A stretch of DNA of 64,000 bases. Source: Terramyces sp. JEL0728. Lineage: Eukaryota > Chytridiomycota > Chytridiomycetes > Rhizophydiales > Terramycetaceae. Below the pieces are notes generated by a model. That model was not told where the DNA came from. It made no database searches and saw only the letters and a program-made list of their open reading frames with translations. The stretch lies in the NCBI GenBank assembly GCA_027603945.1, contig JADIIU010000014.1, positions 62,001 through 126,000 on the forward strand, written 5' to 3'. Positions 1,016 to 63,333 of the stretch are shown piece after piece. The position numbers and the translations under genes are program-made. Numbering within the stretch: position 1 is the stretch's first letter; each line of letters starts with the position of its first letter.

Positions 1016-2057
1016 ATGGAATCAAAACTCAAACCCCAATTGCAATATCTCGAAATACTGCTGGAGCAAAATATACCCGTCTTTGAGTTCATCTATATTA
1101 CGTCTTCAAATGTGGATTCAAAAATATTATGGCCAATATCTGGATTACATATATCAAGCGATTCAGCTTCTTTGACCGATAGCCAGCTGGAATTATTACA
1201 AAAATACTTTAAATTCACTGATAATGTTGAAAATATCTTATAGTAGGTCGAATTTAGTTCAATTGGAGAAATATTTTATGATTTAATCAAAGGTGCTCTT
1301 CCCAGTAACTCCTTGTTGGGAAATTTACAAGCGAAATCACTAGAAAACTTGAACTTCAAATTTCAGGTTGTTGAAACAGAAAATGATCTGAAGCCAAAGT
1401 TAGAGATAACTATAATATCAGCCTCAATATTGGAGCAGAAGGACACGCAATCAAAGGATATTTTGTCTATAGGAGGAAGTGGATACCATCCAAAATTCAA
1501 TTTCAAAGTTGAAGAAGATTCACAAATATTGATCTATGTTCCTCGTGATTACTTTGTTGATCCTTACGAAATTGAAAAGATAATGTTTGATAGCAGTCTG
1601 GACTTTACTCTCTCTGGAAATGTAGACTTGGAGGTTCCACGTCCGTCCAATGATGCTCGACCGCATATACTGGACCTGGCTGTTCTGGGTTCCAAGCAAT
1701 TCCAAATCCCATTCCACATGAGATACCAGGAACCATCTTCCAGCCATGACCGCATAAATGTAGAAATTATATCGCCCATAGTATACAATATCACCGCAGG
1801 TATTTTAAGCTAAGACAGATCCGTGTGAAGGCAATTTAGTGCCAAGAGCAATTAAAAATCTCATTCATCAAAACGATTTCGGGTGTCTTACATCCGAATT
1901 TATCGGGAAACAGGGCTATATTGCTGTCCCGGTAGGAAATAGAGGAATGGAAAGGAAGGTAGCGCAGTATACTTTCATAAATGCAGTGCTTGGATCACTA
2001 CTGCTAATATTGGTGATGCTTTCGACTCTTAATCGCAATAAATTGAAGATTGATTAG
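1016..2057 (+). CDS. PIGX: PIG-X/PBN1-like subunit of GPI mannosyltransferase I
   Basis: Exons 1016-1225, 1247-1799 and 1819-2057; introns of 21 and 19 nt; 333 aa. In known members this ER membrane protein stabilises the PIG-M mannosyltransferase that adds the first mannose to GPI anchors. Seen here: the beta-rich lumenal domain with the family hallmark IPFHMRYQEP (about residue 230), then a single C-terminal hydrophobic helix (FINAVLGSLLLILVMLSTL) followed by a short basic cytosolic tail. The ATG at 1016 is the first in frame; an upstream in-frame stop lies at 980. The first intron starts GTTGAA and ends TAGTAG; it removes two consecutive in-frame stops. The fit to the PBN1/PIG-X family is by motif and topology; sequence in this family is always weakly conserved. 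Confidence 0.75.
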
Positions 2058-2165
2058 CTTTTTGAAGTTCATTTCTGTGCCGAGCACTGATTGTGGAACT
2101 CAAATGTAAAACTATTACCGGATAGAACTTTGTCGTATATTACTTCTAGTTTATTTGGAACAAGG

Positions 2166-5147
<2,982 letters not shown>

Positions 5148-5213
5148 TTCTCTTCTAGAGTCTCAGGATTGAAGTTTAAGAAGCCACAAATTTTTCAGCC
5201 AAAAATTGCCAAA

Positions 5214-6154
5214 ATGGATATTATACAAATCGTTTTGCAAACAGTGATTCTGCTGAACCTGTCCGTATTAATACTAGGATTAGGAGTGCTTCATGGGATC
5301 TTTCGTGTATTAGGGTTAATGGATTTTTCTAACCCATTAAAATACACCAAATTTCCCCTGTGGTTTGAAAGAACCTGTACCGCAATTGTTCTCAAGATAT
5401 TCCCAAGTGAAGCACATTGGCGGGGTAGAAAACCTAAAGCTGGAGAAAAGACTCTGTTTATCCTGAATCACCAAGTTACAGGTAACTTAATTGTTAACTA
5501 GGGATCGATTCCGCAGTGGTGTTTGCTTATATATACGCAACGACGGGGATTTGGCCAAGGGCTCTTGGGGATCGCTGCCATTTTCTGATTCCAATCTGGG
5601 GACACATCTTGCATCTGTTTGGAGCATTCCTTGGTGATCGTGCTTTGTGTGAACAGGTGATGAGCACCGGCTCTCCATTAGTTATCTTCCCTGGTGGTGG
5701 TGATGAAGTCTTACGAAAAAAATCCGTCCCAAAATATTCGTAATCATCTTGTGATTTTAGGTTACAATGGAAGCAAAGAAAAGGGTTTGCCCAGCTTGCG
5801 CTCAAATATGGATACACCATAGTGCCAGTGTCAGCAGTGGGGTTTGACGACATGTTTTATCATTGGCTGGATGTTAGAGTTGGCTACTTTGCTTATCTAG
5901 TTGGCGATAAGAGAACTGATTTCACCTGTCCAATACTGATTCCAAATTTCCAATTCCAAAAGATCTATGTTTCATTTGGACAGCCTGTTGAGACTCAACA
6001 GGATCAGGCACATTGGCAAAAACTGGAAATTGTGGAAAAAGTTCGAGACCAAACCAAATTGGCGGTTGAGGATGGCATTCAATACGGATTAAATAAGCGC
6101 AAATCTGATCCAAACAGATTTGTCTTTAAATTTTTAAAACCAAAAAGCGAATAA
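5214..6154 (+). CDS. TMEM68/DGAT2-like glycerolipid acyltransferase
   Basis: Exons 5214-5481, 5502-5739, 5761-6154 (299 aa; introns 20 and 21 nt). An N-terminal membrane segment (residues ~5-28) is followed by an acyltransferase core: NHQVTGID, the His/Asp catalytic pair in the wider HxxxxxD spacing I associate with TMEM68-type enzymes, then [12 protein letters not shown] and the acceptor-binding block [10 protein letters not shown], then [15 protein letters not shown]. These features place it with ER acyltransferases making diacylglycerol, triacylglycerol or related lipids; the exact substrate cannot be read from sequence. The open frame extends upstream of 5214 only with a TTG, so the ATG at 5214 is used. 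It faces ARPC2 tail-to-tail with 14 bp between stop codons. Confidence 0.85.
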
Positions 6155-6168
6155 ACCTGAATATTTTA

Positions 6169-7159
6169 TTAAGATCTTTTAAAGGTCTTTCCACTAAAGT
6201 TAAAGATAAATACCTTGCGGTTTTCGCTTCGCCAGCTTTCTCTGGCTTTGCACGATTCAAGACTTTCAAGAAAGAGTCAACTCTAGCGCGCATTCTAGAG
6301 TGCATATAAGCCTTTGAGGCTTTGATGTGATAATGGAAGTAGTCTCTAAACATTTGAATCTTTGAAATACAATCGTATGCTGCTTGGCCCTGGAAATGGC
6401 GAGGGAAAAGGACTAGGGTTAATTGAAAGGTACCAAAAGTAATATATCCGACAGATTCGGAATCCTTTAAGTTTAATCCGCGAAGTTCGAGAGGAGGTTC
6501 TCTTTGAGAGTACAGGACTTGTGGGGCAGTTTGTATGGCTGGCAGTCTTCTTGCGTCAACAAATTCCTTGGATTAATATAAAGATACTTGCAAAAACACC
6601 TTTCCGTAAATCCTGTCGGTTTCATCCTTGAATTCGGTTGAAAATATCACGGTAACACGGTCAGGTAGGGCTTTAATATAAATCGCTTCGTTGATGCGGT
6701 ACGGGATTGCCATTAATGACGATTCTTGTTGTTGCTGCTGAGCTGCAAATGCGACTTCAAACGGTGCAGCAAGTGCATTTCTCTTCAATAGCGAGCATGC
6801 TTTGATAAGAGGTTCTAGGGTTATTTAGAGCTATACCGACATCTGCAGGTAGGGTTTGCAGATCGATACTGAGCGTAACATCGTATCCAGCTTCTGGGGT
6901 AGGTTGATAGTAACTTCCATATTCTCTTGCCAACACTTGCGATGCCCCAGATTGTTCAAGTTCCTTAAAACAAATCATTGCCATTGATATTAACAACAGG
7001 TTTTTGTTTTCGCTGTTGGAAATTCGAAATGTTACTCCATCAAAATCGGCTAGAACAGAAATCCCTTTGTCGGCATCACTATATTAATAACAAGTACCTC
7101 CTCAATTTTTCTCGAAGTACTTCTTCAATGATCTTACTGCCTGGTTCTAAAATAATCAT
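6169..7159 (-). CDS. ARPC2: Arp2/3 complex subunit 2 (p34-Arc)
   Basis: Exons from the start: 7159-7098, 7078-6837, 6814-6588, 6566-6434, 6412-6214, 6193-6169 (295 aa; introns 19-22 nt). ARPC2 pairs with ARPC4 to form the core of the actin-nucleating Arp2/3 complex. Diagnostic stretches: [15 protein letters not shown] at the N-terminus, [35 protein letters not shown], and near the C-terminus [20 protein letters not shown] plus [12 protein letters not shown], ending SGKTFKRS. Length equals the usual ~300 aa. The intron at 6413-6433 is 21 nt with no in-frame stop, so unspliced RNA would encode a 7-residue insertion. The last exon has only 25 coding bases. It lies 62 bp downstream of PRP3 on the same strand. 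Confidence 0.96.
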
Positions 7160-7221: not shown

Positions 7222-8863
7222 TTAGAATGCATCATCTACATGAGTTTTTGCTGCGTTCCAGTAGTGTCCAACCCCCATGCCTTCCAGGAACTCCCGCACT
7301 TCATAGTCGGCTTTAAAATGCTTTGTCCTAAAGAACCTGAAATTGTGGGAACTAATTTCACCCTCCCAAATTAGTTTACATTCGTTAGGCAGCCCGTCCT
7401 CTTGCGCCGGACCCTCCTCCCATTTGATCCTACTCATCATCAAATTCTTGTAATGTTTGATACCTTTCGGGCCGCCTTCAACTATAACCAAATTTAAACC
7501 TGGATTGATTATACCGATGCCAGTTAACTTGTACTGCTTTGCATTTAGATTTACCACGTTATTTAATCGTTACCTTTTGACAAATGAAGTTTGTTTTCTA
7601 AATTATTCACCTTGAACACCACGACTTTAACAATTTGGCTGGTATCTTCTTGAAGGTTCCTATCTTTTTTTGCTTTTCGCTCCTCTTCTGTCAACTTGCT
7701 TGATTCAATAAGATCCTTGTGTTTTTGTTTTCGTTCTTCAACCTGTTTGGCCATTTCAGCTTCGATCATAGATGGTGCCAGAATCGCGTCTTGACCAAGG
7801 ACTCTCATGAAGTTTGCCTTTGTAATCTTTGGCTGATCTGCCGGAAGAAGACCCAGCTTTACTTTGTATTGTCGATCTCGCTGTATTTCCATTCGTTTTT
7901 GCCTCCTCAATTTCTTTTGTTCCTAACATTAACCATAGTTACCTTTTTGGTTAACATCATTGGCTTTGGCGGAGGAGCTCCTGGTTCTGCTGGCGGTTCA
8001 ATGGGTATCGGGTGCTGTACAAGATTATTAATTATTTCCTTCAGAGATCCATGTGTGATGACAAAATCTTTATAACTTTCATTGACCAGCTTGGCATCCC
8101 ACCATTCAATTGCAGGCGGTTCTTCATTCTACTTAAATATTTTTTACCCTTAATGCTTTGCTGGACACCAATTCTAGTTCCCTCTCCATCCCAGCCTTCT
8201 TTGCTGATTCTGCAATTTCCTGTTTCAACTTCTCCAATTGTGTCTGAATTAAAAAGATATTACCTCTGTACGCAACTGGTTCGCAATATTAATGTATTTA
8301 CCTGGCTCTGCAAATTTGAAGGTTTTCTTTGTCCTTGATTTCGGAAAGTTTGAGGCTATACTACTGTCAAAGTATGGGTTCTTTGATTGATCCGGCAACT
8401 GTTCGTCCAAATTGATCTCTACTGGTTTAAACAGTGTTGTAGCAGCTTTGGCATCGGTTTGATTGGCTTTCACACTCGAGAGATTCGCTTTAGGTAATGC
8501 AGCTGTATTTCTTCCAATCCTCCCAGCTACTTCTGCTCGTAAAATTGGGTGATATGCTACCTTCAATCCTCCTTTTGCTTTAACCTCTTCGTTATGTACT
8601 TCATTCAAAGCAGCCATCCGGATCTGTTCCTGTTGTTTTTTAGCTTCTCGCTGAGCTTTCAGTGCCATTGCCATTTCTTTCTTTCGCTGGACCTCTTCTT
8701 GATTACTCTTCACATTCTTTGCCGTTGCAGCAATCGCAGCCTTCTTTTGCTTGATTGCTTCAAGGGTCTCTATTAGCGACTTTTTTACTTTATCCAAATC
8801 ATCCAATCGTGGTCTCTTTCTGTTTTCATCTTCCTCCTCCAAATCCCTTTTTTTATTCTCCAT
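7222..8863 (-). CDS. PRP3: U4/U6 snRNP splicing factor Prp3
   Basis: Exons from the start: 8863-8264, 8243-8148, 8128-7943, 7922-7574, 7553-7222 (520 aa). Prp3 binds U4/U6 snRNA in the tri-snRNP. Recognised: NPYFD and TKKTFKF, then EIEWWD-like AIEWWDAKLV, LVQHPIPIEPP, LTKKEQKKLRRQKR, ITKANFMRVLGQDAI, and the C-terminal DUF1115 domain with NLVIVEGGPKGIKHYKNLMM and IKWEEG. The basic, Lys/Glu-rich N-terminus is normal. The last intron (7554-7573) can only restore the frame as 20 nt ending in GG rather than AG; see findings. The start codon is 23 bp from that of SYO1 on the other strand. A splicing factor with an apparently non-AG intron is a notable coincidence. Confidence 0.95.
7554..7573 (-). 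other. Apparent GT-GG intron of 20 nt in PRP3
   Basis: Frame and family alignment (LHLSK joined to VNLNAKQYKLTG) require removal of exactly 20 nt beginning GTAACGATTAAAT and ending CGTGG. Every AG within reach breaks the frame. Unspliced reading meets TAA within the intron and would delete the C-terminal domain. Confidence 0.65.
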
Positions 8864-8886: not shown

Positions 8887-10845
8887 ATGGGGAAAAGAAA
8901 GAATAAGGACAAGAAAAAGGAAAAACAACAGAGTGGTAGTAATGAAAAACTTCCAGTTTTATCGACGCTAGCGACAGGAGAAATCGAGGATCGTACCTGG
9001 GCAGCAACGGCAATCTCAAATATCGTCCAAGATGAAGAAAATGCCAAACAATTGATGGCGGCAGGTGTAATCAATGCATTATTAGCTGCTATTAAGGAAA
9101 GTAGCAATAGGCTGGTTTTGGAAAGTGTTGGAGCGCTTCGAAATGTTTTGTCTGTTGTTGGCGAAACTGCCTGTCAAGAATGTATTGAAAAACAAGGGCT
9201 TTTGTCGATTCTTTCTTTGATGCCAAAGGTTCTCATATGTTAATCCTAGTTGGTTACAGAATTGGAAAATTTGTCGTTGTGCCAGCCTCCAGATCCCAAA
9301 AAACCAGACAACTACTATGATTGTTTTATGATGGCTGAGCACATCCTTTCATGTCTCTGGAGTTTAGCAGAGTGCTCTGATAATGCGGTTGATTATCTTA
9401 CTACCGCCACTATGGTTGGATTCCTATTCAACCTGTGGAGTGTAGAGGATTGTCCTCCTGCCCTACAAAGAATCATTGGTAAGTGCGGTTTGATGGTAGC
9501 GCAGTACATGAATACCATTTCTGAAGAAAATAGCAAACTACAAAAAATATTTGCATCAAACTCAGAATATGTCTCCAAACTATTTAATTTATTGCAGAAC
9601 CACCAATCTGTAGAAATCAGGTTGCTTGCTGGGTCAATCTTACATAATATCAAGCAAGAAATGGATGGGTTATACGAATATATACTTTCAACAATAGTCC
9701 AAGTATTAGATTATGATATACAAAGCAAAATTTCGTACATGGATACTGCAGGCAAAGAGGTTGATTTGGTAGATATGAATTAATCAAGGCAATGGCCAAA
9801 CTTCCAATGAATGCACAAGTGCAACAAATCGGGGACATGGATCTTGTAAAGCCTGAAAACAAGAACACAGTAAATATGATTAACCAAAGGAATTCATGTC
9901 AAACATAGTTGGTGAATTGAGAATTATACAGCTCGCATTAGAAATCCTCACCAATATTTATTCAGAAGAGATTCAAGAAGTAGATGATATGGAAGCAGAC
10001 GAGGATCACATGGAGGTTGTGGAGCAAAATGAAAATTCCAGTTACTTGGGCAATGTGCTGGATGAAAAACGTTTGGTGAATAGAATTGTGTCATTCACAT
10101 TGACTAGAATACCGGATTTGAAGCATGATTCGTGCAAGGAATTCAATTCTGAAGTAAATCAAATTTATTCAAAGCATTTCTCCTGTTTGAATAATATTTT
10201 TTTGAATGCGTTTGGAAACAGCTGGATAAGGAATAATGCTGCCGACGCAAAGGCTCTATGGAGTACGTATATCCGGCTGGCAATAGAACTGTCGGTATTG
10301 GAAGAACCTCCTTTGGAATATATTGACAATTTAGTAACTTGCGTCTGGTCTGTTGCAAGAGCATTCAAAGCTTGCGATATCGAGCTATCCCTTGACGATT
10401 CACAAGCAAAATGGTTGGTCAATGCTGCAGATATTGACTCTTCTGCTCCAGAAAGCTTGAAATTAAAATTGGTTGGAATATTAGGGTTGATTGCACAGAA
10501 TAAGAACCAGATCCCAGCAAATAAGGTACCCTGATATTAATGCAGTTTATTGGCGAATGGATTATGGGGCAAATAAAAAAGGCAAACAACGTTGAAATCC
10601 TGGTAGAGCTTTTGAATGCAGTTTTCGACATATATGGCGACAATTTTGACTACAATTATCCAGTATATGTGAAATTGAGTTTTAATTCAATTTTGAAATC
10701 TGCCCTTCCAAACATCAGGGTCCAAGTAAAGTCTGTCGACAAAAGAAGCAACTTTTCATTGCGCGCACATGGCGATGAATGCTTGCTCAACCTCACCAAT
10801 TTCATCAAGTACAAGGACGATGAAGCAAAGTCGCTCTCAAAATAA
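8887..10845 (+). CDS. SYO1: Symportin Syo1 / HEATR3, ribosomal protein import chaperone
   Basis: Exons 8887-9228, 9250-9768, 9789-9869, 9890-10525, 10546-10845 (625 aa; introns 20-21 nt). In yeast Syo1 carries Rpl5 and Rpl11 together into the nucleus for 5S RNP assembly. Seen: basic start MGKRKNKDKKKEK (localisation signal), ARM/HEAT repeats such as TWAATAISNIVQDEENAKQL and RLVLESVGALRNVLSVVG, an acidic loop EVDDMEADEDHMEVVEQNE that matches the acidic Rpl11-binding loop of the family, and the characteristic end AVFDIYGDNFDYNYPVYV with VDKR and FIKYKDDEA. All four introns are phase 0. It ends 83 bp before the elongase gene on the same strand. Confidence 0.88.
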
Positions 10846-10928: not shown

Positions 10929-11963
10929 ATGGAGGCGATCTACAAAGAATCGTTGTTGTTTTTGCAAGACTTTATAGATAAGCAACTCCTAGTTCCTTCC
11001 ACTCGCTCCAGATTTTCAGTTATTGTGGATACAAGACTTTGGGATTGGAATCAACTGTCCCAGTATCACAATTTCAAATGGGATGTTGCTAGAACCCCAT
11101 TGGCTAGTTTAGGGGTATTCCGTGAATAATGATAGGTTATCACTGTTACTTGGGCGATTTATTTCTCCACTATACTTTTGTTGAAAGCATTCATGGCAAA
11201 TCGCGAGCCATTCAAGTTGCTTTGGATTACTGCTTTCCATAACCTCTTGCTGTGCGCCGAATCATTTTTCATGTTTGTAGTGGGTATCTACGTAGTGTGG
11301 GAAAAATACAATGTAAGCTTGAATTAACTTGGAATGAACCACTTGGTGAACTTTTCTGCACCAACAGTCGCGCAACCACAGATGGATTATTCTCATGGAT
11401 CATGTACATGTACTACTTGAGCAAGTTCCCTGAATTGCTTGATACTGCTATTTTGATTTTGAAAAAGGTAGTTCCATTCTGACTTTGAAAAACGTTATTT
11501 TCCTCCACTGGTACCACCACGCCATTGTCATGCTAATGGTGTGGGCTTGGATGGAATTCAACATTCCATTTGGAATCTTTGGGCTGATCTTGAATACCGG
11601 TATTCATGTTTTGATGTATTGGTACTACTTTGCCAGTTCGTTTGGCTGGAATGTATGGTACAAGGTAGATTTATTATAACGTAGAAATACATTACCACTG
11701 CGCAAATTGTTCAATTCATTACTTCGTTTGTAATGTCAATTCCTTACATCTACTATGCAAAGTTAAACGACTGCGGGGGATGGAACGCATACTACTTTTC
11801 AATGGCTGTTAGCGGATCTTTCTTGATATTGTTTGTCAATTTCTATCGCAAATCCTATTTGAAGAAGCCAAAAGCTGTTGAAAAGAAGGAAGAAAAGAAG
11901 GAAAGAAAGAACTACTCACCAAGTGCTTCTCCAAGAGCAAAACGCACTCCAAAGAAAAAGTAA
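10929..11963 (+). CDS. ELO-family very-long-chain fatty acid elongase
   Basis: Exons 10929-11114, 11136-11312, 11333-11467, 11488-11664, 11685-11963 (317 aa). The enzyme condenses malonyl-CoA with acyl-CoA in the ER. Seen: several membrane helices, SKFPELLDTAILILKKK, the catalytic histidine box FLHWYHH, NTGIHVLMYWYYF, KKYITTAQIVQF, and a Lys-rich C-terminal tail ending KRTPKKK suited to ER retention. Two of its four introns lack AG: 11313-11332 must end GG and 11468-11487 must end TG for the conserved order EKYN-NEPLGELF and LKK-KNVIFLHWYHH to be read. Both removals restore frame and family match. Substrate chain length cannot be told. Confidence 0.93.
11313..11332 (+). other. Apparent GT-GG intron of 20 nt in the elongase gene
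   Basis: Starts GTAAGC, contains TTAAC, ends TTGG. The next possible AG lies tens of bases away and would delete conserved residues. Reading through meets TAA. Confidence 0.65.
11468..11487 (+). other. Apparent GT-TG intron of 20 nt in the elongase gene
   Basis: Starts GTAGTTCC, contains CTGAC, ends TTTG. Excision joins ILILKK to KNVIFLHWYHH, the standard ELO sequence. The only AG inside is at the fourth base. A short direct repeat (TTTGAAAAA) flanks it, but no window set by that repeat gives GT-AG ends. Confidence 0.6.
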
Positions 11964-16396: not shown

Positions 16397-16413
16397 AAAA
16401 AGTTTGCGAAAAA

Positions 16414-20342: not shown

Positions 20343-20378
20343 TTTCAAAGTTGCAATATATTTTTTTTAACTTTTTTA

Positions 20379-21449: not shown

Positions 21450-21501
21450 TTTCCCTGTTTAGTGCGTGACAAAAAAAATATGTAAGAACAGTTTATTAGA
21501 A

Positions 21502-27127: not shown

Positions 27128-28171
<1,044 letters not shown>

Positions 28172-30538: not shown

Positions 30539-30556
30539 AATCATTCCATGAGCAAT

Positions 30557-36833: not shown

Positions 36834-36851
36834 AATCATTCCATGAGCAAT

Positions 36852-50200: not shown

Positions 50201-53200
50201 TAATAAGCATTCCGCCTTTCTTTACAACACTCTTGTTCAAAATAGGATCTAAAGCTGGGTCGATAACTTCTCCAACGCCTTGTAAAATAACTGGTGAACC
50301 AAACTGTATTGCATTCTCAAGAGTTCTCAGGAAATCTGTCTGCTTCAAATCTATAATTTTCAAGTCTCGCTTCTTCTCCATATTTCTGATCCAAAAATTG
50401 GCTTGCCCTTGAGGGTCAATCATCAATGGCCATCTACGACCTCTGGTTACGATAATGCCGTTTTCGGCAGAGAATGCATCACTAGGGAGGCCTTGAATAT
50501 TCCAATCTCTGATATCTGTTTGCTTTCCGATAAAAGCATCAAAAGAGAAATCCGGACTAAATGGGATTTCTAATGCTTTAATTTGGGCAAGCCAAACGCC
50601 ATTGACCAATCTTTGACGATATGCTGTATTGAATGGCCCAGCATATGACATGAAGGCGGCTGCAAGCAAACAGTCTCCAGGTAGATATCGCATTGCATCC
50701 TCGTACCGCTTGATACTTTTTTCCCAGCGATCTCGTTCACCAGCCAAGCCAGAAACTAATTTTTCAGCACGCAAAAGCTTCAATTCAGTTTGTTCGGATT
50801 CAATACGAAGCTTTTCCTTTAATTCTGCCTTTTCATCATATTGGTTTTTTAAATCGAGCAGTTTCTCTTGGATTTCTTGAAGTTTAGCCTTTGCTTCTTT
50901 TAGAGTTTTCTGCTTCTTCTCTAAAGTTTCAGTAGCTAGCCGCAGCTTTTCTTTCTTTGGTGCTACCTGTCTGAATATAATGCCTGCGATTAGGAATTAA
51001 TTACCGTAGGTTTCCATAGCTCTCACCCACATACACAGAGATTTGGATGCTCCAGACACTCTGCCAACAATATCGGGTTGGAAGTTTTCATCAGCACAAA
51101 ACTGTGAGATTCGCTTGAGGATTTTGTCTGAAATATTATCCTTGTCAAACCCAACCAACTGCTTGATAAAGTTGGGATTGCCAAGCTGTCTTTTTGCTTC
51201 ATCCCATGTTGGTTCGCATTTTTTCAATACCATCACAGCCTCCATTACCTTTTCCACCAGCGGAGGAGGCTTACCATAGGACCTAATTTCGTTCAAATCC
51301 TTTTTGTTGATATTTTCCAAGGCTTTAGTAGCAGCATTCAGAGCCGGGAGTGCTTGGTCTAAATCAGCCTGAGCAGCATCAGCTACAAGCTTTACTTCTG
51401 CTTCTTCCACCCCAAGCTTTTCCGCTTTTGCAGAAACACTTTTTGCTGTATCGTCGGCTTCGCGCTTCTGTTGTACAATGACAACCAGGAAATCTACATT
51501 AAAGAGAAATACCTTCACACTGTTTCTGGAACTGAGCAACTTGCTTTTTGCTAACTTCTAGCTCTACCGAAATCTTCTGGACATTTTCTCTTGTATCATC
51601 GAGTTTGCTCAGCCCGTTTCTTAACTTTGAAGCAGCATCGCCTATCTCTTTACGTTTTTCTTTCAGCAAATCTCTATAGCCATTCACCAGCTCCAAATAA
51701 TTGATTGGAGTGACATAATTGTAACGCTTCAATTCTTCAATCATGCGCAGTGATGTTTCCACTACCGACATATGAACTGATACAAACACCTGAGATACAC
51801 CTTTTTTAATTTGCTCTGTTCCAAGGTCAATGTCAGCAAGATATTTAGTTGCAACTTCCAGCAAGGCGTCGTCCGGCCACTCTGAGAACCAATCGATTGT
51901 CATACAGTTAACAAGGGATGGGAACATTCGAAGTCTTTTTCTGAAGGTTTCTCCGACTGGACTCATACACAGCACGATATGCAGGTTCTGGCGTACTCTT
52001 TCAATGAATAGACTGAAGAGCTGATCGCCGCTTTCTCCGCCTTTGCTTAAAGCTTGCATGCTATTCTTAATTTCTGGCAGCTCATCAGCAGCAAATAGAT
52101 TAGGAACCTATGGTTAGCTCTAAAAACCTCGCCGCTGCTCAAGATATTACTCAAGTCCTCCAAGAAGCTTTCATTGATGATCTGTGCGTCTGTTAGCAAG
52201 AAAACGGTTGGTTTGTTATCCAGCCCAGTTAATCTGTACAGTTTTTTCAAATCTTCTCTGAACTCTGTATGGCGGTAGTTCTTTGAAATTTTGATTTGGA
52301 AAACATTGGTCTGGACTAAATATGCAGCAAGCCTGCTTAAAGATTGCCGTCCGGAGCCTCCAACGCCAATTAAGAATACATTGCCATTTGGTAGACGAAG
52401 AACACGTGTAATTCTACAAATGTGCTCTATCGCGTCATAGAATAGTACAAGATCTACTTGCACGAATCCTGGTTCACTGTTGTATTCTACAAGCTTTTCT
52501 TCAATGAAAGACTTTAGTTTGTCTGTGTTGGTAATTTCTTCGTAGTGTGGATTATCACTAATTCCAATTGTTAGAAAGTCCCCAAATATTGGATACTTTT
52601 TGTTGCATCCCAGCTGGATCAAAGAAGAATTGAAATGTGCAATTATTTTGTCATCTATCAACTTTCTGAAGAATTCTCTGTCCGGTTTATCAATCAAACG
52701 ATCTCCAAATACTCTAACCATTTCATGAATCCACAATTTAATCATTGAGTCTCTAGAGTCGTAATATTCCTTGTTTGAACGCATCATTCCTTGGAAAACT
52801 TTGGAAATATCCCTCAAGTTAAACAGATAGTGGATCTTTGCTGGAGTTGGGAGCAATTGAGTGCTGAAAATATTGAAAATTTCGATTGTAGCCAAAGTGA
52901 TCAAATCGCCCAGTGGTTTTACATCTTCTTCAAAATCTTGCAATTTCTGGTTCAGAATGGTAAAGAATATTCTGTTGATTGAACTTTCATTCGGGAATGT
53001 CATATTTAGGACGGTAAACCTAGCTTGGATTCTTGGACTCAACACATTCCTCCCACCTCCAGGTGGCCCCATTGCTGCCGCTAGGAAAATATCGTTGAAG
53101 TATTTTAGACCTTGTTTTTGTCTATCATAAGCAAATCCATAATCCATGTAGTGCTTGATAAATTCCAGTGGGGGCTGCGATCCAAATGTGTCCTTCATTG

Positions 53201-56200
53201 GCATGTTGAAATCATCTATAAAGGTGAGCATTGCCTTTCCTCCAATTGGGACAAATACGTTCTTTGTCCTTTTCTCCAGCTTTCCTTCTATAATATTCTG
53301 CACGCCATTCGAAGTAGTTTGAGCAGACATATTGATTAATAAAATATTAAAGCTTGTATCAGGTGTGAAGATTGAGTTATGAACCATGGCGGTCTTTCCT
53401 GTACCGACATCGCCCACAAGCAGCACAGGCTTTCTCTTGTTTACCAAAGCTCTGAAAATGAATTCATTTCTTATAGTATCGACTGTGGGAACAAATATCT
53501 TGTAGTACGGAATTGATGTAGAATATCTCCAACTCGTAGGCAGCTTGTCCTCCCAAGGTGTCCAAACTTTATTGGTTTTGTCAACCTGATACTCAAACAC
53601 AGTGTCTTTACTTGGGAACTGGCCTTCTATTTCACGAAGGAAAGAGTCAAACTTCTTTCTGCTTTCCTGAGTTAATGAACCGCCAAGAGCCCAAATAACC
53701 GAGAAAAGGAACCACAGTTCAATCATTCTACCGTACGAATCCGTTTCATCAGGATTGACACCGTTTTCCAATGTGGCTACCGAGTCGAACAAGGTACAGA
53801 AAGACTGAATTGCAGCAGATTCGGGGACTGGAACAAACTGGGAACATGTTCTTCTAAATTCAAGCAGCTGTGCAAGATACTTGTCCGATAATCTTCTGAG
53901 TAAATCAATGGATGATTTGTCTTCTCTGACTGCAATCCACGAATCCAGATAGGGTCTCCAACCGAGATACTGGTAATCAGTATAGATCATACCACAGCGA
54001 CTGACTGTAGCAGGCGAAGCAGTTGATAGATTTTCGACTTCAAAAAGCAGCGATACCTGCTCGGGCAACGCTATTCTTTCCCCGTTAATTAAAGTCAGCA
54101 CTTTGTTATCATCCAGAACTGTGTTCATTGATTCAATCCATAGTGTATCAACCGGTCCATCCAAAACTATCCACTTTTGATCCTTCTTGTCATCTGAGCA
54201 CGCATTTCGCATCACTGTAGAGAGAACACCGTCTGTCCATTCGTTAGTGTTGATATTAAACTCGCCATAAAGTTCGGTCAAAGACAGTGCTTTTGGATTG
54301 AGAGGATAGAATTTTGCTGGTACAAATTGGTCAGGATTCGTTTTAGCAAGTCGGTTCAGCGTGCTTTGGAGTAATTTCCACGAGGTAGATTTTCCAGACC
54401 CGGTTTCCCCCACAATCATGACCCCGTGTCTGCTGCACTTGGTTTCATAGAGCTGAATCACTTTGAGATAGGCGATTTCAACAGGTTGGATGTTGGCCAG
54501 CTTCATTTCTTCCGTGATGGCATTTTTCATTACAGAATAGTCAAACTGCACTGCTTCGACACCTGGGAACAAATCCGACAGCATGGAAGTAAATAATGGC
54601 ACATCTTCAGCTGTAAGCTTTGGAATATTGTTGTCCCTCATGGCCATGTACAAAACGACTTCATCAGAAACATTTGGATCCTGGCGTTTCTTGCTGCCGG
54701 CTGAACGTAGACAAGTAGTCAGTGCTCTCAAACCAAAATCATAATGGTCTTGCTTTGAAAGTTGCTGGATAGAAAGCTTGTAGAGGGTATCAGCCTTTTT
54801 GGCCAAAACTCTAGTGTTGGAAAACCCTTCAGCAAAAAGCATAATTTCGGCAATTAAGGCAGTATCGGGAACCATCATGGACACGGGTCTGAATAAGGAT
54901 TTCAAGTTGTCTGGCAACTCTACACGGCCTGCATACCCCTGATATTAATTATAGTTTACAGGATTCATGGTGATAAATATACCAGCAGAAGTATTTAGTC
55001 TGATTTCCTTTCCTTCAAAAACAAAATGAGACACTTTACGAGAGATTGCGGTCAAGATACATGAAATCTGAAGCGCAACGACAGACAATACTTCGATATC
55101 AATACGATTGAACTCATCAAAACACCCCCATGCACCAGTCTGCACCAATCCGCTGAACATTCTTCCTATGGACTTATAGTCCAAGGCATCGGAACAGTTG
55201 AACACAATTACGTATTTGCCTAGTCCCTTGCCCAAATCTTTCACTGTTTCTGTTTTCCCAGTCCCTGCTGGGCCTTGAGGACTACCACCTCTAAAGAGGT
55301 GAAGAGCAGTAGTCAAGGTCATATAGCAACGGTCAGTTAGAGGGGTGATGACTAATCTGCCGCTGTTGCCGAGATATTCGTATCCATATCTAAAATGGGT
55401 ATTAATCTGTTTGATATAGCAGTCGTCTTCTTCTTTGCCTTCCTTTTCCCAATAGAAACGCAGTTGGCTGAGCCATTCAAAAGCATTAACATTAGAGCAG
55501 TTGCTTTTGACCATTTTTTCTATGACATCCCTGGAGTGCACTTCGATGGTAATTAAAGCAATTAGTTTTTTTCGATCGACTTTGCTAATGGGCATTCTGA
55601 CCAGATCTGCAAACTTTTTGAGACTAGATATTTGCTTTTTCTTCAAGGTTTTCATTGCGGTTTTATCTCCCTTTTCCATTTCGATCAAGCTTTTAGTACA
55701 ATCGGACGTCCATTGAATCAATCCGGAACAAATTAGAAGCATGCCAGCCCAATCTTTCAGCCATTTGTCTTTTTTCGCCTTCTTCAAGTTGGACAGACAT
55801 CCGCCCATGAGTTTTCTTAATGTTGATATCATCATGTTTTCAATATCTATCAACCATATTTCTACCGGACCCTCTACTAGAACCGGGTTGGTAAAAGGAA
55901 CATATTCACCATCGCCAGAATGCATACCTATTGCTTCATTATGGCGTCTACCATCCACCCCCGCCATATTCAACTCCAATTTGTGGAGATTATCAAAGCA
56001 CTTCTTTAGATGAGGCTGGACAGAGTTTGGATCTTTTGCTTGGCCAAGAATTTCGAGCAAATCATCGTTTGATAAAAAGTAGAAACGAGGGAAAGATTGC
56101 CGTTTGGTTTCAAGGTACATGTCGAGAGACTTTTGAATTTTCTCTAGCTGTGCGTTCATGTCCACCAATTGCTCTAGCAAACCAGCTTGGTGGGTGATTT

Positions 56201-59200
56201 TCAAGACATTTTTATCTTTTAGTATTTGGGTCATGATTTTTTTGAAAGCTGCGTTCACTTGGTCAAATACTGCGGATTCTTTTGGAAGCTGTTTTCTAAT
56301 ATCTTCAGTCCCCACAAAGATATTTTCCAAATACATCCATTGTCTTTGAACCATTAGGAGCGTTTCTACAACTTCGACAATGAGAGATAAGCTCCTTTCC
56401 CAATGGTCACATTGTGCTTCAAATGCCTTGAAAAATTTCGAAGCTTTCATTGTTGAAATTGTAACTTGATTATCTTCGAGCAACTCGAAAATCGGATCAG
56501 TGCTTCTAATTTTGTAATAGCCCTTCTCTTCTTTGTAAGGAACAATATCGATTTCCAATTGAGCCCAGGCGTCAGCAATAGTTTGCAGTCCTTGTTCAAT
56601 TGACAATTCTTTGGTAGCTGCCACTGACAATGCGGCGATGCTTTCCGTATGCTGATCTAGACCCAAATCCAAGATTTTATCCAGCGTAAAGTCATTGTCC
56701 GTTATTGAGAATGTCTTTCCAATTTCATCCATAATCATGTTCCAATGTCTTTCTCTCATTGCGGGGTTTCGAAGGTCGAGCAGCAAAGGTATGGTTCGTT
56801 TGGTTTGATTGACTTTTTCCTTCAAGGAGGAAAACACCTCCCAGTCCTTTACTTCTTTCGACATTTTAGTCAATCGCTTTGCAAACTTTTGCACGGTTTC
56901 TTCCATCTCAGCACCGTCCAATTGCAAGAAATACTTTGATTTCCATCCACCGTACACATTACCCCATTCTTGCGCTGCAGTCCATACTTGTGTCAAGAGC
57001 TCGATATCAGCCGTGACAATTTCCATATCCTTTGATGGATTATGTTCGATTTTGAACACTGCCAGGCCTTTTCGAAGATTTTTTTCAGAGTTTGCAGCGT
57101 TTGCAAGCATTCTTCGGTAATCACCAATACTCTTCATTGCTTTTTCCACAGAAAGGTCGGAGGTAAATGGACCTTTGGAGTTGAAATCGTCTTTGATATA
57201 CACAACAGACTTTGCAAACTCATCTGCTGAATTCATTAATTCTGCCCTGAATTTGGACTTTGATTCGTGCAGCTGTTTGTCCGCGAACGCAATAGTTTCT
57301 TGGAACTGTGTCCACACCTCTGGCAACCCTTGGAGTTTGGTTTTTTCCTCTTCTTTGACTTGAACTTCGTATTTCTCTAGAATTTCATACATTTCTCTGA
57401 TAGGTGGGAACTGGGTTTCAATTTTCACAATATCCCCTTGAAGCTGATTGAGCAAAGCAAGTCCGTCGCTTAGCTGGTCTAGATCTTTTGGGGGAGTACG
57501 AAGCTTTTCGGTTGTTTTTGAAAACATTTCAAATAATGCATTCAAATCGGTAATTGCATTTTGATTCAGCAGGGTCGTTAGTTTGCTTTGCCATGCACTG
57601 CAGTGGGATACTAAGGAGTGTTTCAGCAAAGAGCAGTCGAGTCTCACAAAATTAATGTTTGACAATGTTTCCTCCTTCTGAACATTGTTTGCCACTTCAT
57701 TATATCGGTTAATATCGGCATCAAAAGTTGACAGTGCGGGTTTGAGCTTTGCATATCTTCGAATAAACGCATCCTTGTTGATTTCCCAGATTTCTTTATA
57801 GGTGTCCCAATATTTCAGATATGTTTGACATTTTGTAGCATTGTTGGACATTCCATTTTGGATGTGGACAAAGATCTTTAGCACATCGGCTTCAGCTGCT
57901 ATAATATCATAGAACCTAGAAGCATTCTGGTTAGCGTCAGGTGTCAATCTCTGAGTTAATCTTGGTATAATTGAAATCGTAGAAATCATTTCTCTTGCTG
58001 TGGTGTTTAATGAATCTTGCAATTTGGCAAAAGTTGGGCTAAATTCCACCTTTTGACTGTCTAGGACGACGTTAACTTTAAACAGAGGATGGATTTCTCC
58101 CCCACCTTCTCTATTCTTTCCTTCACCATTAATCGCTTTAGACACTTCCGACAACGACTTTTTGACCGTAACCCGCAAAGCTTGTTCGATTTTGTTGTCG
58201 ATTCCTTCAATATATTTGTACCAATACCCTTGCACGTCTCTTCCGTCATTCTTAAAAATCTCGTATGAGGACTGGAGCGTTTCAACGATGCTTTCGTAAA
58301 ACAAAGCTATTTTGCTTTGCACCTTCTTTTGATGCTGGGTCTGACTAATTTCAAATGCATCCAATTCGTATATCCTCTTGTTTTCAATTTCCAATAACGA
58401 AGTGAGTGAAATCGAATTGCAATGTTGTTGAATAATCGCATTGTTCCTAAGGAATTCAGACACAGTCTTTTGAACATCAGTCAAATGCCTTCTGCATTCT
58501 TTAATGAAAAATTCAGTGACTCCTTTGGAATCCCAAGTGAGGGTAGTTAGACCAGGGTTAATTTTCCTGTCCAGAAAGCGGATTCTTTCTCTGAATAGCA
58601 AATGCTCCTGGGGAGATAGAGTTTCGATAATGTCATTGAAATCCCTAACTACCAATAAAACATTTTCCCTAAGAATCCGCAATTCTTCCTTCTTTCCGTA
58701 AATTTCCTGCACATGAAATGGAACATCGCACTTGAGCTTTTGGAAGTATGCCAGTTCTGAAAACAGCCTAACCAAATCTTTGTCAAATTTAACTTGTAGT
58801 GTCTGGCCTGGACCACGAATTAGCAGGACATCGTTGAGCTTTAAATGTAGCTCTGTGCTGATGCTATTTGCCCATTCTAAATGAGTTTTTGAGATATAAT
58901 CTTCCAAAGATGCCACTAAGAGATCATATTGAATTTTTGCTTCCTGGCTCAATGTCGACTGTTGCAGGTAGTAAGCACTGGTCAATGCGTTCATAGGAGA
59001 ATTTATTCGCAAGAGCAGCGATTTTGCCCAATAGGCAGACCCTGAATAATCTGGCTGCGTCCTAAGTATCTGGGGAGTTTTACGATTGGTTTCAAATTCA
59101 ATTTTGACAGCATTGAGTTCTTGAAGCAATAGTTGATACGCATCACTAGTCTTCTTTTCTACCGTTCGCTTGATTGCTTCACGCTTGGCTAAGTGATGGA

Positions 59201-61073
59201 AAACATCCAGTAGCTCTACACTTCCTTCAACGGTATTAGCATCGTCAAAAGCAGATATAATAACATTTTGCATCATAACTTCCAAGTCTTTTACTCCTTG
59301 TTTGAAGTTGGTGTAATCGTCATGCCATCTGGTGGCCTTCACGTCCAAGATATGTCTCCTGATGTTCCATAGACTGGCAATTTGCTTTTCAAACGCATCT
59401 TCAATATCCTCCAGACTTTCATTAAATAGTACGATACCTTTTTGCAATTTCGGGACCTCTTGAGCCGCCAAATACTGGAATTGGTAATTTTTCTCCTCCT
59501 GTAGTTTTTCTAGCAAATTGAATTTGTCCCTCGCAGACTTCAAGCAAATCACGACAACGACGAACGAATCTAAATTAATAATCGAATACGCATCAATTTG
59601 TGCAAAAATACTGCTCTGATCGAAATCCCAAGTCCCTTTTGTATGCTTGGCAATGTGTTGACAATTTTTTCTGTAAATCTTTTTCCACATTTCCCCACAG
59701 TTGATTGAATCCTGTATGCACATGATACTATTTTGAACATCTCCGTGAAAAATATCATCTAGCGAAATTTTAGCACAGCAGCGTCTGATGATCTCATTTG
59801 AAATTTTACGGAGCAGACCTGTCAATCTTTCCTTTGTATTGTAATACTTTGAATTTGCCCAGATCAATCGAACGCAATTCAAAAGCTTTGGTAGGATATT
59901 TAGTATATCTTTAGGTTCAGATTGAGAGAGCAGTTTGCAGTGATCGCTGAGTGTTAACAGGAACTTTAGATTGTCTTTTGCTTCAACGGTGCCTTCTTGA
60001 ATTAAATGGGATAGTCGAAGGAATTGCTCTAAGAAGGAGGACTTTGCAATTTCTAGTACTTTGATGATTGTCTGAACGTCGCTTCGGTTGATTTGATCGC
60101 TAATTCCTGACAAATCGTCACACCTGCTTCTCCAGAATTGAATTTCTTCCATCGGACCCGAATTTTCAGTTGATTCTGATGTGTGCTGAGTATTAATAAC
60201 ATCTTTGATTTGCTTGGTCCAGTGTACAAGAAGCAATTCTAGTCTCTGAATAACGTCTTTTTGCCTGGCAGCTTCTTCGACCACGATTTTATAGCCTTCA
60301 GGTACGTACAACATGGTATGTCCTTTGAATTGGTAGGTGGTGTCAGTCAAAAATGCCTGATGTTAGTGTCGTGTTACCATAAACTTGTGCAATTGATTAT
60401 TAAATTCTTTGCGCACGCTATCCGGCCACTTTTTATTCCCGACGAATATTGGGACATATACTTGGGTCATAGTCTTCAGCAAGCTTTCAAGGATATTTTT
60501 AGTTAGTTTTCCGAACTGCACCTTCTTTTCAAAGTTATGTTCTGTGAGGATATCCTCTGGTGACGAAGACTCCTTGATAAAATATGCCATTTCATTGAAG
60601 CTGTGTAAGGGCAGTGAGCTTTGAACACAAAATAACGGAGGTTTGTGCTTGTCATCAAAATAGAGCACTAGCTTTCTTGCTTCAGTGCTAGTTAAAAAGT
60701 CCTTGATGTAAAGTAAATGTTCCTCCGTAAGCAGACTATCTTCAAATTTGCTTAAGCAAATCGACTTTTTGAATCTCTCCAAAAGAACTTCGTAGTTGAC
60801 AGTTGGTGGATGAACCTCAGATTCCAGCTCTGTGTCTTCAAGCTCGTTGTCTTCAGAAATCTGCTGCTTGTCTACTTCATCTTCAACCAACTGCTCTTCA
60901 TTATTTTCATCGATTTCCAGAGTTTCATTATATTCTCCATTTGCAATATCCACATTTTCATCGTGGGTGTTTGGTTCTGCATTTTCTATGTTTTCACCTT
61001 CTTCTATTGTCTCGCCAACGAGCGCAGGCTGTTCAACGGGAACATGGTCTTCAGAACTGGTGGTTTCTGCCAT
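47288..61073 (-). CDS. DNAH2: Axonemal inner-arm dynein heavy chain, DNAH2 type
   Basis: Exons from the start: 61073-60378, 60356-59590, 59569-59438, 59415-54960, 54938-52128, 52107-51513, 51493-51005, 50983-49818, 49794-47774, 47753-47288 (4532 aa; nine introns of 19-23 nt). Acidic N-terminus, DHC_N1 tail (GPMEEIQFWRSRCDDLSGIS), linker (QRQWMYLENIF, KRQSFPRFYFLSNDDLLEIL), AAA1 P-loop GPAGTGKTETVKDLGKG (~1910), AAA2 GETGSGKSTSW (~2210), AAA3 GDVGTGKTAMV (~2550), AAA4 GVGGSGRQSLSRLAAYL (~2910), the coiled-coil stalk with microtubule-binding tip (VIVQQKREAD ... FQPDIVGRVSGASKSL), AAA5-6 and a C-terminal domain ending in KKAAKGMYTCPLYIFP. Wording throughout is that of DNAH2 (I1/f dynein beta chain), which sets flagellar waveform. 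No disruption seen. Confidence 0.97.
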
Positions 61074-61458
61074 AGTGTATCACTAGAACTTGCTTCACGT
61101 AAACAAAACAATTTATGACGCGTGATCCTGGTCATTTCCAATAGCATCTATAGCTAATTCTACTAGCGGTTGATCGTGAGCTTATATAAAGAAGATTTGA
61201 GACATGTGTTATCTCAAGAATAAGAAACAGATATGCTCTGTGATTTTCAGCAATCGGTCCGCCATTGGACTTGTATTTAAGATCGCAACGGATCTCACCT
61301 ACCCGGCAATGGAGCAAGTATCCATCGTTGCTGTTCTGCAATTTTGCCCAATCAGCTGCTGTGACAACAAAGGCATAACAAATAGTGTCAAACAATAGGA
61401 AAATCCATTTTGTAAAAAGGGTCCACTCATCAACTTTCTTTTTAATTCACAGAATAAT
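61074..61458. promoter_or_regulatory. Divergent region between DNAH2 and the CCDC81-like gene
   Basis: 385 bases between the start codons of two flagellar genes, so probably a shared promoter region for zoospore-stage expression (inferred). A minus-strand frame at 61132-61395 has a hydrophobic segment but overlaps no recognised family and is not called. Confidence 0.5.
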
Positions 61459-63333
61459 ATGGACAAGTTAGATTTTGAGGATGTTATACGCGTGGTTTGT
61501 GATTCAATCAGTAAAAACAAACGCTTCTCCGAACTTTCTCATTTGGAACTTTGTGATTTGTGGAAAGGAGTTTGCAAATTCCTCATTGAACAGCTATTAT
61601 TAAAGAAGGTACCCTTTCACTGAATCAAAGTCGATTAATATTCACGGGATTGGATCATTCTACACTAAAAAAACCAAAAGAGTAACTGGAGACGATATTG
61701 TATGGTCAGTCCATTTTTCGCCTTCCAAAAACTGGGACAAGCTGCCTGGATATCAGATTGATCGGACAATTACCATTGGTACTTTAGGATTTATACTAGG
61801 AACTGCAGCAGCAGAAGCTCTCAATTTGGCTGCTGTTGCACAACAGATAGGGTTTACAAGAGATTTAGTCGAAGCTGGAATCAAGGATATTGTGAACGGA
61901 CTGACCAGAATACTGAAAAGAGGATCTATAGTAAACCTTACAATGGGCGTGTTGGGGAAAATGGTATTTCAAAACCAAGATATCAAATTTCGCTTTGCAC
62001 CAAACTTTTTGAAAACCCTCAATGAAGAACAAAAAGCTTCAAAGTATTTAAGTGTTGATGTAGAAAACCGGCTTTGAATGACAAGCCCAGTGCGGAAAAC
62101 TCAAAGAAAGACAATGCCGAAGATTCACAGAAAATATTGTCAAAAGAAGATGAAAATTTGAGCGAAAAGAAAGCAGTTCAATTTGATAGCGAAAAGGGAG
62201 AGAGGCAGTTAGCCAAAGTCAACGAGGATGAAGGTAATTTGCGATAATCCCAGAAAATGATGAAGAAACTATGCAGATGGTTTCGGAGTTGGATGAAGCA
62301 GCCCAAAAATTGGCAAGATTAGAAGAGCTCATTGACCAAACATTCTCAATTGAAGCTCGAACAGGTAATTAATTTTAAATCAAGTGTCCACTCATACTCA
62401 CCACCATTCCGGAAATAGACTTTGGACAGATCAAAAATGTCCAATTTGTAAGACCAAAGAAATAAACAACTTTGTAGATAGGGAAGCAATCAGAAAGGCA
62501 GAAAAGGATCACGATAAGATGCTATTACATATTTCGCTTGATACCGACAAGGAATACTTTAATAGAAAGAAAGAATTGGAAACCTTGAAATTAAAAGATT
62601 CTCTTGGAACCGCGCAGTATAATCACATGGTTGCATTACAAAGTCATGACAAGTCAAGAGAAAAGCAACCAATGGGGGATTTATTTGAAAAGAGGACCAT
62701 ACAAAAGCCAATCATGTCAACTAGCCAGATGGCAAGCGGCATCCATGAACAGGTTGCAATGTTTTAATCTAGATCTATATGAAAAAAGAAAAACTGTCAA
62801 AAGCAGCTCACCAACACGCTATCCAAGAAAAGTTGATAAGTGAAAGGCTTAGAAAGGAGTATCTACATCATTTATTCTAGAATTAAAGCCGCCGAGCTCC
62901 AAGCGCACTGCGACAAACTTCAACGCTGTCAAAAACAAAGAACTTCATTAGCAGAACAGATTAGAGTGCATCAAGACCTAAGAGAGAAGAAGGAACCGAC
63001 CACTAACGAAAACCCTTTTGCGCGAAGTGAGAGCTTGATGGCGTTGTATCAAAGGGAAAAGGCAAAACAAATGTACTATGAGCAATTGGCGATAGTAAGA
63101 CAACGGCAGGACTATGCCCAAAAAGTAGCAGACATAGAAAAGAAACACGCACTTAATAGGCTAGAATTATCACGAAAAGAGTAACTGCATATTAACTGGT
63201 TAGATTAGAAAAGGATTTGGTGATGATTAAGAAAGGAAAAACTGATATCCGCCATTCACTTGAAACTTATTGGTCGGACCAAATTGAATGGAAAAACAAA
63301 TTGAAAAAGGATTTTGAAGTGGAAGCCAGCTAA
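61459..63333 (+). CDS. CCDC81: CCDC81-like HU-fold and coiled-coil protein
   Basis: Exons 61459-61608, 61631-62059, 62086-62233, 62254-62364, 62385-62752, 62773-62858, 62881-63180, 63204-63333 (573 aa). N-terminal CCDC81 HU domains: LWKGVCKFLIEQLLLKKSIN followed by IHGIGSFYT, then GFTRDLVEAGIKDIVNGLTR and IVNLTMGVLGKMVFQNQDIK. The middle is acidic. The C-terminal half has CPICKTKE, a CxxC pair as in CCDC81, and long charged helices ending LETYWSDQIEWKNKLKKDFE. CCDC81 is centrosomal/flagellar in animals and protists. The second intron is either 26 nt GT-AG (62060-62085, used here) or 20 nt GC-AG (62071-62090); both keep the frame. A further stop-free 21-nt GT...AG segment lies near 61785. Confidence 0.82.

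Follow-up and report, generated by a model that had tools for sequence, protein, structure and literature searches.

Spliceosomal introns of 19–23 nucleotides predicted throughout 264 kb of the genome of the chytrid fungus Terramyces sp. JEL0728

Introduction

In genomes with ultra-short introns nearly all introns lie within a few nucleotides (nt) of a single length below about 25 nt, and the described systems closest to the one reported here, for which the figures are those given in excerpts of the cited papers, are chlorarachniophyte nucleomorphs, heterotrich ciliates and mikrocytids. The nucleomorphs of Bigelowiella natans and Lotharella oceanica, which are endosymbiont remnants, combine small genomes (∼0.37 and ∼0.61 Mb) with 951 and 1011 introns; these introns have GT-AG ends with three exceptions, are mostly 18–23 nt long in L. 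oceanica and have a commonest length of 19 nt in both (PMC4035089). The heterotrich Stentor coeruleus has AU-rich introns of 15–16 nt with a branch A fixed at position 10–11, a tail of 5 nt after it and no strong branch consensus (PMC9505925), and the mikrocytid Mikrocytos mackini is a parasite with a reduced spliceosome, in which 224 introns of 16–17 nt, uniform and conserved in sequence, are predicted (PMC10245619). The introns of Paramecium, at ∼25 nt, are longer than those considered here (PMC5014332). Here we describe what are very probably introns of 19–23 nt in a 64-kb stretch of DNA (the window) from the chytrid Terramyces sp. JEL0728 (Chytridiomycota, Rhizophydiales, Terramycetaceae), comprising positions 62,001–126,000 of contig C14 in a genome of 15,016,339 bases and 231 contigs.

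The initial annotation of the window had recognized a fungus-grade genome, and protein matches identify it as that of a named chytrid, Terramyces sp. JEL0728. The strain number is that of a chytrid in culture, which we take to be a free-living saprobe, and its genome and those of its relatives were probably presented by Amses et al. in 2022. That study is cited for related genomes in the excerpted text of PMC11797018. The annotation further held that introns so uniformly short are established only in a few protists; nucleomorphs and heterotrich ciliates are indeed comparable, and the mikrocytids, which it did not name, belong beside them. Its statement that no fungal lineage had been so described agrees with the open-licence literature searched, in which we found no description of such introns in fungi. 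Ultra-short introns are a known kind of thing; their placement in a fungus, their own geometry and their donor signal are new as far as we searched. We consider it highly probable (about 0.95) that the segments are U2-type spliceosomal introns of 19–23 nt, present throughout the portion of the nuclear genome that was read (264 kb).

A narrow class of intron lengths

A scan of the window for GTA followed by YTRAY, 0–4 nt and YAG gave 70 matches at 19–23 nt, against 9.7 expected from 20 Markov shuffles, and at most seven at every other length up to 60. Since such a scan presupposes its motif, a motif-free gene finder was written, which draws only on GT...AG ends, on start (ATG) and stop codons and on the codon periodicity of long open frames, with flat weight on lengths of 12–150 nt. 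Applied to the main sequence set, the window together with positions 1–200000 of contig C1, it placed 66 of its 140 introns at 19–23 nt with a peak at 20, while 11 decoy dinucleotide pairs put in place of GT...AG yielded 2, 5, 5, 6, 8, 9, 10, 10, 11, 11 and 13 introns in that range. The length peak is hence found with the GT...AG ends of U2-type introns and is absent with the 11 other pairs.

Retrained models, which permit GT-AG only, sharpened the class. When signals and codon model were retrained on C1 alone with flat lengths of 12–150 and applied to the window, 89 of 121 introns fell at 18–24 nt, against 1 of 18 (in four genes) in the reversed window; there is a small leak in this held-out design, as the C1 seed introns came from the motif-free run, whose codon model had seen the open frames of the window. 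Over the 264 kb without a length prior, 364 of 494 introns measured 18–24 nt (3 of 18 nt, 79 of 19, 150 of 20, 90 of 21, 29 of 22, 11 of 23 and 2 of 24) and the remainder were spread over 12–17 and 25–150 nt. The final model, which has a length prior and supplies all window coordinates given below, finds 35 genes and 110 introns in the window, of which 100 are short, at 18–24 nt (19 nt, 21; 20 nt, 34; 21 nt, 28; 22 nt, 11; 23 nt, 6), and 113 genes with 346 introns in the 200 kb of C1, 321 of them at 18–24 nt. The initial annotation, which had counted about 100 introns of 19–23 nt in some 33 genes, was thus right to within a few, and its span of 1016–63333 coincides with the start of the first and the end of the last gene of this model. 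Together the two regions hold 421 introns of 18–24 nt among 456, spread over 118 of 148 gene models at 1.59 per kb, so that nearly all lie within a few nt of one length below ∼25 nt. If the remainder of the 15-Mb genome is alike, this extrapolates to ∼23,900 introns. For the genome-wide length distribution that the annotation had proposed as a check, the narrow class holds in the DNA read and the genome-wide figure is that extrapolation. In ends and lengths the introns resemble those of the nucleomorphs, but they would number ∼24,000 in a 15-Mb fungal nucleus rather than 951 or 1011 in a relict one.

Ten of the 110 window introns are predicted to exceed 24 nt, and some of these are modelling artefacts. 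Part of the predicted introns above 24 nt was checked, and on that part a second, longer class was rejected. A predicted 66-nt intron of Vps1 is ungapped in 0 of 120 homologues; a 74-nt call in PRP3 (7500–7573) probably cuts out conserved coding sequence by mistake, the C-terminal Pfam match there lacking its first 33 positions; a 120-nt intron pair in paralogues reads as conserved coding sequence, and a 90-nt pair turned into 19 nt in the following model. One 146-nt pair is also predicted in paralogues, and a 32-nt intron (4085–4116) in the kinase gene h2, longer than the main class, may be real. Among the 364 introns, 74 of the 90 with a length of 21 nt would introduce an in-frame stop if retained and 16 would not. 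From this no conclusion on selection against introns of 3n length is drawn, because the branch TAA gives a stop mechanically and the finder under-detects 3n introns that lack one. In Paramecium such introns are under strong pressure, according to the excerpted source; in Terramyces those of 21 nt (90 of 364) show no visible depletion, with detection bias possible.

Donor, branch and acceptor

The 364 introns called without a length prior share the consensus unit AAG|GTAATT...YTAAY, usually followed by 1–2 nt and then by YAG (mostly TAG). In 320 of them the best-scoring branch A is base 14 or 15 of the intron, in two it is base 12 and in none base 13, and it is followed by 5–6 nt to the 3′ end in 321; both spacings, from 5′ site to branch and from branch to 3′ site, are fixed, as they are in ultra-short-intron genomes. 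The TTAAC/TTAAT/CTAAC-like box that the initial annotation had noticed near the 3′ end is borne out by this spacing and by YTRAY in the last 12 nt of 73 of the 100 short window introns. Uniformity and conserved sequence are shared with M. mackini, and a fixed branch position and AU-richness with Stentor, whose tail is nearly the same and whose loop is ∼4 nt shorter, which makes up most of the difference from the 19–23 nt seen here. The branch A at 14–15 and the YTAAY box differ from what the excerpts give for Stentor.

The donor carries little of the G at +5 that complementarity to U1 and U6 would favor: in the final set (n = 421) the +5 base is T in 200, C in 74, G in 74 and A in 73, a departure from what is a usual preference and not a strict requirement. 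This scarcity was not made by training, since it is also seen in the motif-free set (n = 66; G 8, T 31) and in the first list made by regular expression (G in 3 of 83). According to the excerpted text of PMC9803359, 5′ site use in the absence of the N6-methyladenosine (m6A) of U6 depends on whether A stands at +4 and G at +5, and the A+4, non-G+5 make-up predicted here may be of interest beside such work on U6 methylation.

Probable removal from the messenger RNA

As the evidence comes entirely from sequence, removal of the short segments from mRNA is counted as inferred, and paralogues and homologues are what it draws on. In paralogous proteins, predicted introns coincide in codon and phase in 82 distinct pairs, of which 71 are short in both members; in these 71, which are not independent since many come from velvet genes, the length difference is not a multiple of three in 40, zero in 21 and three in 10. 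Between copies at least 90% identical, introns of h24 and h28 measure 19 (33069–33087) and 20 nt (39359–39378), and those of h25 and h29 measure 20 (33715–33734) and 21 nt (40006–40026), with the flanking frame kept. Two near-identical gene copies outside the training set (L001 and L002, contigs C199 and C111) have introns of 21 and 20 nt (bases 1350–1800) and share one uninterrupted frame only after these are taken out. Junctions were also compared with the 120 best listed homologues (ARPC2, of 3719; Vps1, of 8000 scored), a junction being ungapped if no gap lay within 8 residues. Five of six short-intron junctions of Vps1 (contig C1) were ungapped in 99–120 of these, and spliced ARPC2 (h4, 6169–7159, minus strand; introns 7079–7097, 19 nt; 6815–6836, 22 nt; 6567–6587, 21 nt; 6413–6433, 21 nt; 6194–6213, 20 nt) aligns over nearly its whole length to PDB chains.

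It could be argued that the segments are not introns at all and reflect indels from sequencing or assembly, sites of programmed frameshifting or translated in-frame insertions, as the evidence is DNA only, 16 of the 90 segments of 21 nt lack an in-frame stop and a GenBank protein translates one. The sharp 19–23-nt class, the GT/YTAAY/AG anatomy, the decoy and reversed controls and the paralogue comparisons all speak against this, and we regard it as very improbable.

Proteins already deposited for this strain, and probably those of Boothiomyces, rest in part on such introns. Spliced ARPC2 matches that of Boothiomyces sp. JEL0866 at 97% and the Terramyces sp. JEL0728 protein in GenBank (P0002) at 90%; P0002 is letter-identical to our model except for a 7-residue insertion, which is the translated 21-nt intron 6413–6433, and a 22-residue deletion beside the 19-nt intron 7079–7097. 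The Vps1 model matches the GenBank protein of the strain at 96%; the latter (P0123) removes all six short introns of the model (20–21 nt) and loses the stretch after one further site (L017, C1 ∼33,870). Odd residues at this misread site in the Boothiomyces protein P0122 suggest that an intron stands there too. A Vps1 protein labelled Quercus suber (P0124) ranks among the fungal homologues and is perhaps a contamination.

GenBank proteins of the strain hence already splice introns of 20–22 nt in ARPC2 and Vps1 and misread others, so that the database contains the trait implicitly, while the literature searched gives no description of it; the annotation of the Terramyces genome may contain many errors like those in ARPC2. 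These proteins also bear on a reading in which the introns, though real, are commonplace in this chytrid branch and as good as known, because the deposited proteins of Terramyces, and probably of Boothiomyces, rest on them. The six introns reproduced in P0123, the 94–97% identity of Boothiomyces proteins to the Terramyces models and the odd residues of P0122 favor it, while the silence of the literature searched and the misreading of a 21-nt and a 19-nt intron in ARPC2 speak against it. We hold this reading as a tentative one, clearly below even odds though of some weight.

Predicted exons of ten nucleotides or none

Among 285 internal exons three are of zero length, lying between two short introns. 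In the CHS5-like gene h21 (28783–29641, plus strand; further introns 29239–29257 and 29423–29441) the two introns are 28907–28928 and 28929–28950 (22 + 22, total 44 nt), in the ARL2 gene (L023) they occupy C1:92337–92376 (20 + 20, total 40 nt) and in a third gene (L026) C1:126215–126256 (21 + 21, total 42 nt), each total being that of two usual units. With both units removed, the CHS5 and ARL2 proteins are ungapped against PDB chains at these places. A strict-motif scan for such pairs gave 0 matches against 0.3 expected, so that the three pairs rest on gene models, and for two on protein alignment, and not on motif excess. Random placement predicts 0.84 pairs, from which 3 is not far off. Stepwise splicing is possible for these pairs, as in stwintrons or tandem introns, where one intron of an adjoining or nested pair leaves before the other; removal of 40–44 nt in one step is another reading.

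The U1C gene, which lies outside the window and outside the training set (L054), begins with MPK, a 21-nt intron, a 10-nt exon and a 22-nt intron, with boundaries placed by eye. Removing both introns restores the U1C start, the joined N-terminus agreeing with the conventional one. An exon of 10 nt in U1C and exons of 0 nt in three models fit recognition by intron definition.

Spliceosomal components of the genome

A U2 small nuclear RNA (snRNA) is encoded at C70:14443–14635 (140 bits) and carries the canonical branch-recognition stretch GUGUAGUA. When G-U pairs are counted, the branch heptamers match U2 GUAGUA at 4.41 of 6 positions. In shuffles the figure is 2.58, and the comparison is biased in favor of complementarity because the heptamers were chosen by motif; with that bias, branch and U2 are complementary. 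As a U1C gene was found, a U1 particle is probably present. In the U1C search the zf-U1 family also matched the E. coli control genome. The window itself encodes PRP3 and an LSM-domain protein (Pfam), a cyclophilin and the nonsense-mediated decay factor UPF3. Of the three splicing factors that the initial annotation had named here, PRP3 and an LSM domain were recovered, LSM4 being the annotation's own name for the latter, while its CWC27 is supported as a cyclophilin (h14), which we take to be CWC27.

These components bear on the possibility that the segments are excised otherwise, by DNA elimination as in ciliates or by a non-spliceosomal RNA cutter. The span is far under the minimum stated for human spliceosomes in the excerpt of PMC6692369, which could be held in its favor; what argues for spliceosomal introns instead is that the ends are canonical GT-AG, that the branch motif complements the genome's own U2 and that U1C, PRP3, LSM and UPF3 genes are present, and we give excision by such other means hardly any credence.

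The snRNA searches covered U1, U2, U4 and U6, with the U2 and U1C finds by the same tool as their only positive controls. The annotation had proposed comparing U2 and U6 with those of other fungi; U2 proved canonical in its branch-recognition stretch and U6 was not found. Two Rfam matches to U6 (27 bits, cut-off 44) were rejected as coding, for they lie in L001 and L002, whose shared frame runs through the match once the 21- and 20-nt introns are removed. A pattern for the U6 internal stem-loop (ISL) with up to three mismatches gave 67 matches, all with at least two mismatches, where the reversed control gave 34, and in eight of the matched loci that were viewed no ACAGAG stood in the 60 bases upstream, one having it elsewhere in 200 bases. 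BLAST with a U6 consensus gave nothing, a U6 core pattern gave one match at three mismatches against one in the control, and a pattern allowing insertions between the core blocks gave nothing. Rfam returned no U1, and a pattern of the U1 5′ end and loop gave 19 matches against 32 in the reversed control; three of these have surroundings that look protein-coding, and Rfam scans of three loci returned no U1 match. The U4 search gave none. Rfam and tRNA scans of the window returned no matches.

Genes of the window

Further gene models are given here with their introns in order of transcription. On the plus strand, h1 (1016–2057) has introns 1226–1246 (21 nt) and 1800–1818 (19 nt) and is followed on the minus strand by h2, a DYRK/YAK1-like kinase named by eye (2166–5147), with introns 4761–4781, 4544–4563, 4368–4389, 3944–3964, 3800–3820 and 3660–3681 besides the possible one of 32 nt. 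A DGAT2-type acyltransferase (h3, 5214–6154, plus; 5482–5501, 5740–5760) precedes ARPC2, beyond which lie PRP3 (h5, 7222–8863, minus; 8244–8263, 8129–8147, 7923–7942), h6 (8887–10845, plus; 9229–9249, 9479–9499, 9769–9788, 9870–9889, 10526–10545), h7 (11551–11963, plus; 11665–11684), the LSM-domain gene (h8, 12068–12456, minus; 12373–12392), ribosomal protein S13/uS15 (h9, 12802–13238, plus; 12957–12979, 23 nt) and h11 (14041–15900, plus; 14228–14248, 15768–15788). UPF3 (h13, 16414–17304; 17116–17134, 16884–16903) and the cyclophilin (h14, 17333–18856; 18645–18663, 18515–18534, 17484–17504) are both on the minus strand. The model of h16 is weaker (19236–21082, plus; 19527–19546, 19655–19673, 20550–20569, 20976–20996) and its 47- and 76-nt calls are doubtful. 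Three minus-strand models follow: h17 (21129–22041; 21273–21293, 21193–21213), an ArsA/GET3-type ATPase (h18, 22459–23487; 23166–23186, 23055–23074, 22641–22659) and h19 (23517–27810; 27270–27289, 26522–26540, 25874–25892, 25496–25514, 25275–25294, 25047–25065, 24426–24446), probably two fused genes, by eye a WD40-like one and a ubiquitin-AN1-like one at 27128–27810.

After the CHS5-like gene come a gene that by eye is NUDIX-like (h22, 29812–30538, plus; 30197–30215) and a cofactor-independent phosphoglycerate mutase (h23, 30557–32129, minus; 31314–31333, 30895–30914), of which h27 is a second copy (36852–38424, minus; 37609–37628, 37190–37209). A duplication (29812–32129 and 36492–38424) involves phosphoglycerate mutase, NUDIX-like and velvet-like genes, and about seven velvet-like paralogues stand in tandem between 32565 and 45858. 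The velvet and velvet-like models there, all on the plus strand, are h24 (32565–33235; 32720–32738, 32794–32814 and the 19-nt intron above), the velvet gene h25 (33626–34234; the 20-nt intron above, 33790–33810, 21 nt, and 34065–34086, 22 nt), h26, fused to a NUDIX-like gene (35386–36833; 35475–35493, 35549–35569, 35824–35846, 36492–36510), h28 (39008–39526; 39010–39028, 39084–39104 and the 20-nt copy), h29 (39917–41318; the 21-nt copy, 40082–40102, 40357–40378), h30 (41696–42304; 41785–41803, 41859–41879, 42134–42156), h31 (43389–43971; 43478–43499, 43555–43577, 43832–43853) and h32 (45280–45858; 45381–45400, 45456–45475, 45730–45749). The window closes with h33 (46221–46902, plus; 46409–46428, 46745–46764), by eye a dynein heavy-chain-like protein of 4546 residues (h34, 47288–61073, minus; 60357–60377, 54939–54959, 52108–52127, 51494–51512, 50984–51004, 49795–49817, 47754–47773) and h35 (61459–63333, plus; 61609–61630, 61779–61799, 62044–62063, 62234–62253, 62365–62384, 62753–62772, 62859–62880, 63181–63203).

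Discussion

Several observations weigh against reading the segments as U2-type introns. Strict YTRAY is absent from 27 of the 100 short window introns. The sixth short-intron junction of Vps1 is ungapped in 29 of the best 120 homologues, and those of ARPC2 in 91, 42, 102, 69 and 26, the low counts including variable and terminal stretches, and the ARPC2 alignments to PDB chains have small gaps near some junctions. The Vps1 site L017 has the donor and branch box of a short intron without AG where it is expected, and no GT-AG solution of 15–29 nt exists there; the acceptor may be other than AG, or the sequence may contain an error. Finally, the U1, U4 and U6 RNAs and the N-terminal domain of U1-70K were not found in the genome. 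They may have diverged, be interrupted by introns or lie in gaps of the assembly, and absence is not claimed.

If the segments are U2-type introns, they would be recognized by intron definition. U1 would read (A)AG|GTAA and U2 would pair with YTAAY, the bulged A and the first intron base lying only 13–14 nt apart. The YAG 5–6 nt downstream of the branch A would serve as 3′ site, giving a lariat loop of 14–15 nt with a tail of 5–6 nt. The +5 G, which is normally paired with U1 and U6, would be largely dispensed with. According to the excerpt of PMC6692369, human spliceosomes require ∼50 nt from the 5′ site to the branch, and the two helices of the human B complex are ∼15 nm apart, corresponding to ∼21 nt. 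With introns of only 19–23 nt, the splicing machinery of Terramyces probably works in far less space. As the stretches paired with U1 or U6 and with U2 would be only a few nt apart, the partners probably bind one after the other, or else the early complex has another arrangement. The spliceosome itself may be altered in geometry, as the initial annotation had supposed, 13–14 nt being far below the ∼50 nt stated for the human one. The introns were probably shortened by deletion down to a steric floor near branch position 14, which we propose as the cause of the narrow size class.

The fullest form of this proposal is a spliceosome of fixed span serving the whole transcriptome of a cultured fungus. 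Nearly all introns would measure 19–23 nt, with 13–14 nt from their 5′ end to the branch A as a sharp lower limit; U1 and U6 would have changed to suit the loss of the +5 G contact, and exons could be as small as 10 nt or, where back-to-back introns are removed in turn, missing. Taken as a whole we put it at slightly less than an even chance.

The deposited ARPC2 and Vps1 proteins illustrate the errors that arise in gene models unable to take introns of ∼20 nt. A distance of 13–14 nt from 5′ site to branch appears to suffice in Terramyces, and extrapolation puts the number of such sites in the tens of thousands. The comparable earlier cases, in the excerpts cited, come from ciliates, from parasites or from relict nuclei. 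A chytrid in culture whose genome is compact and whose close relatives are sequenced would make it possible to ask when and how introns shrank and which parts of the spliceosome changed.

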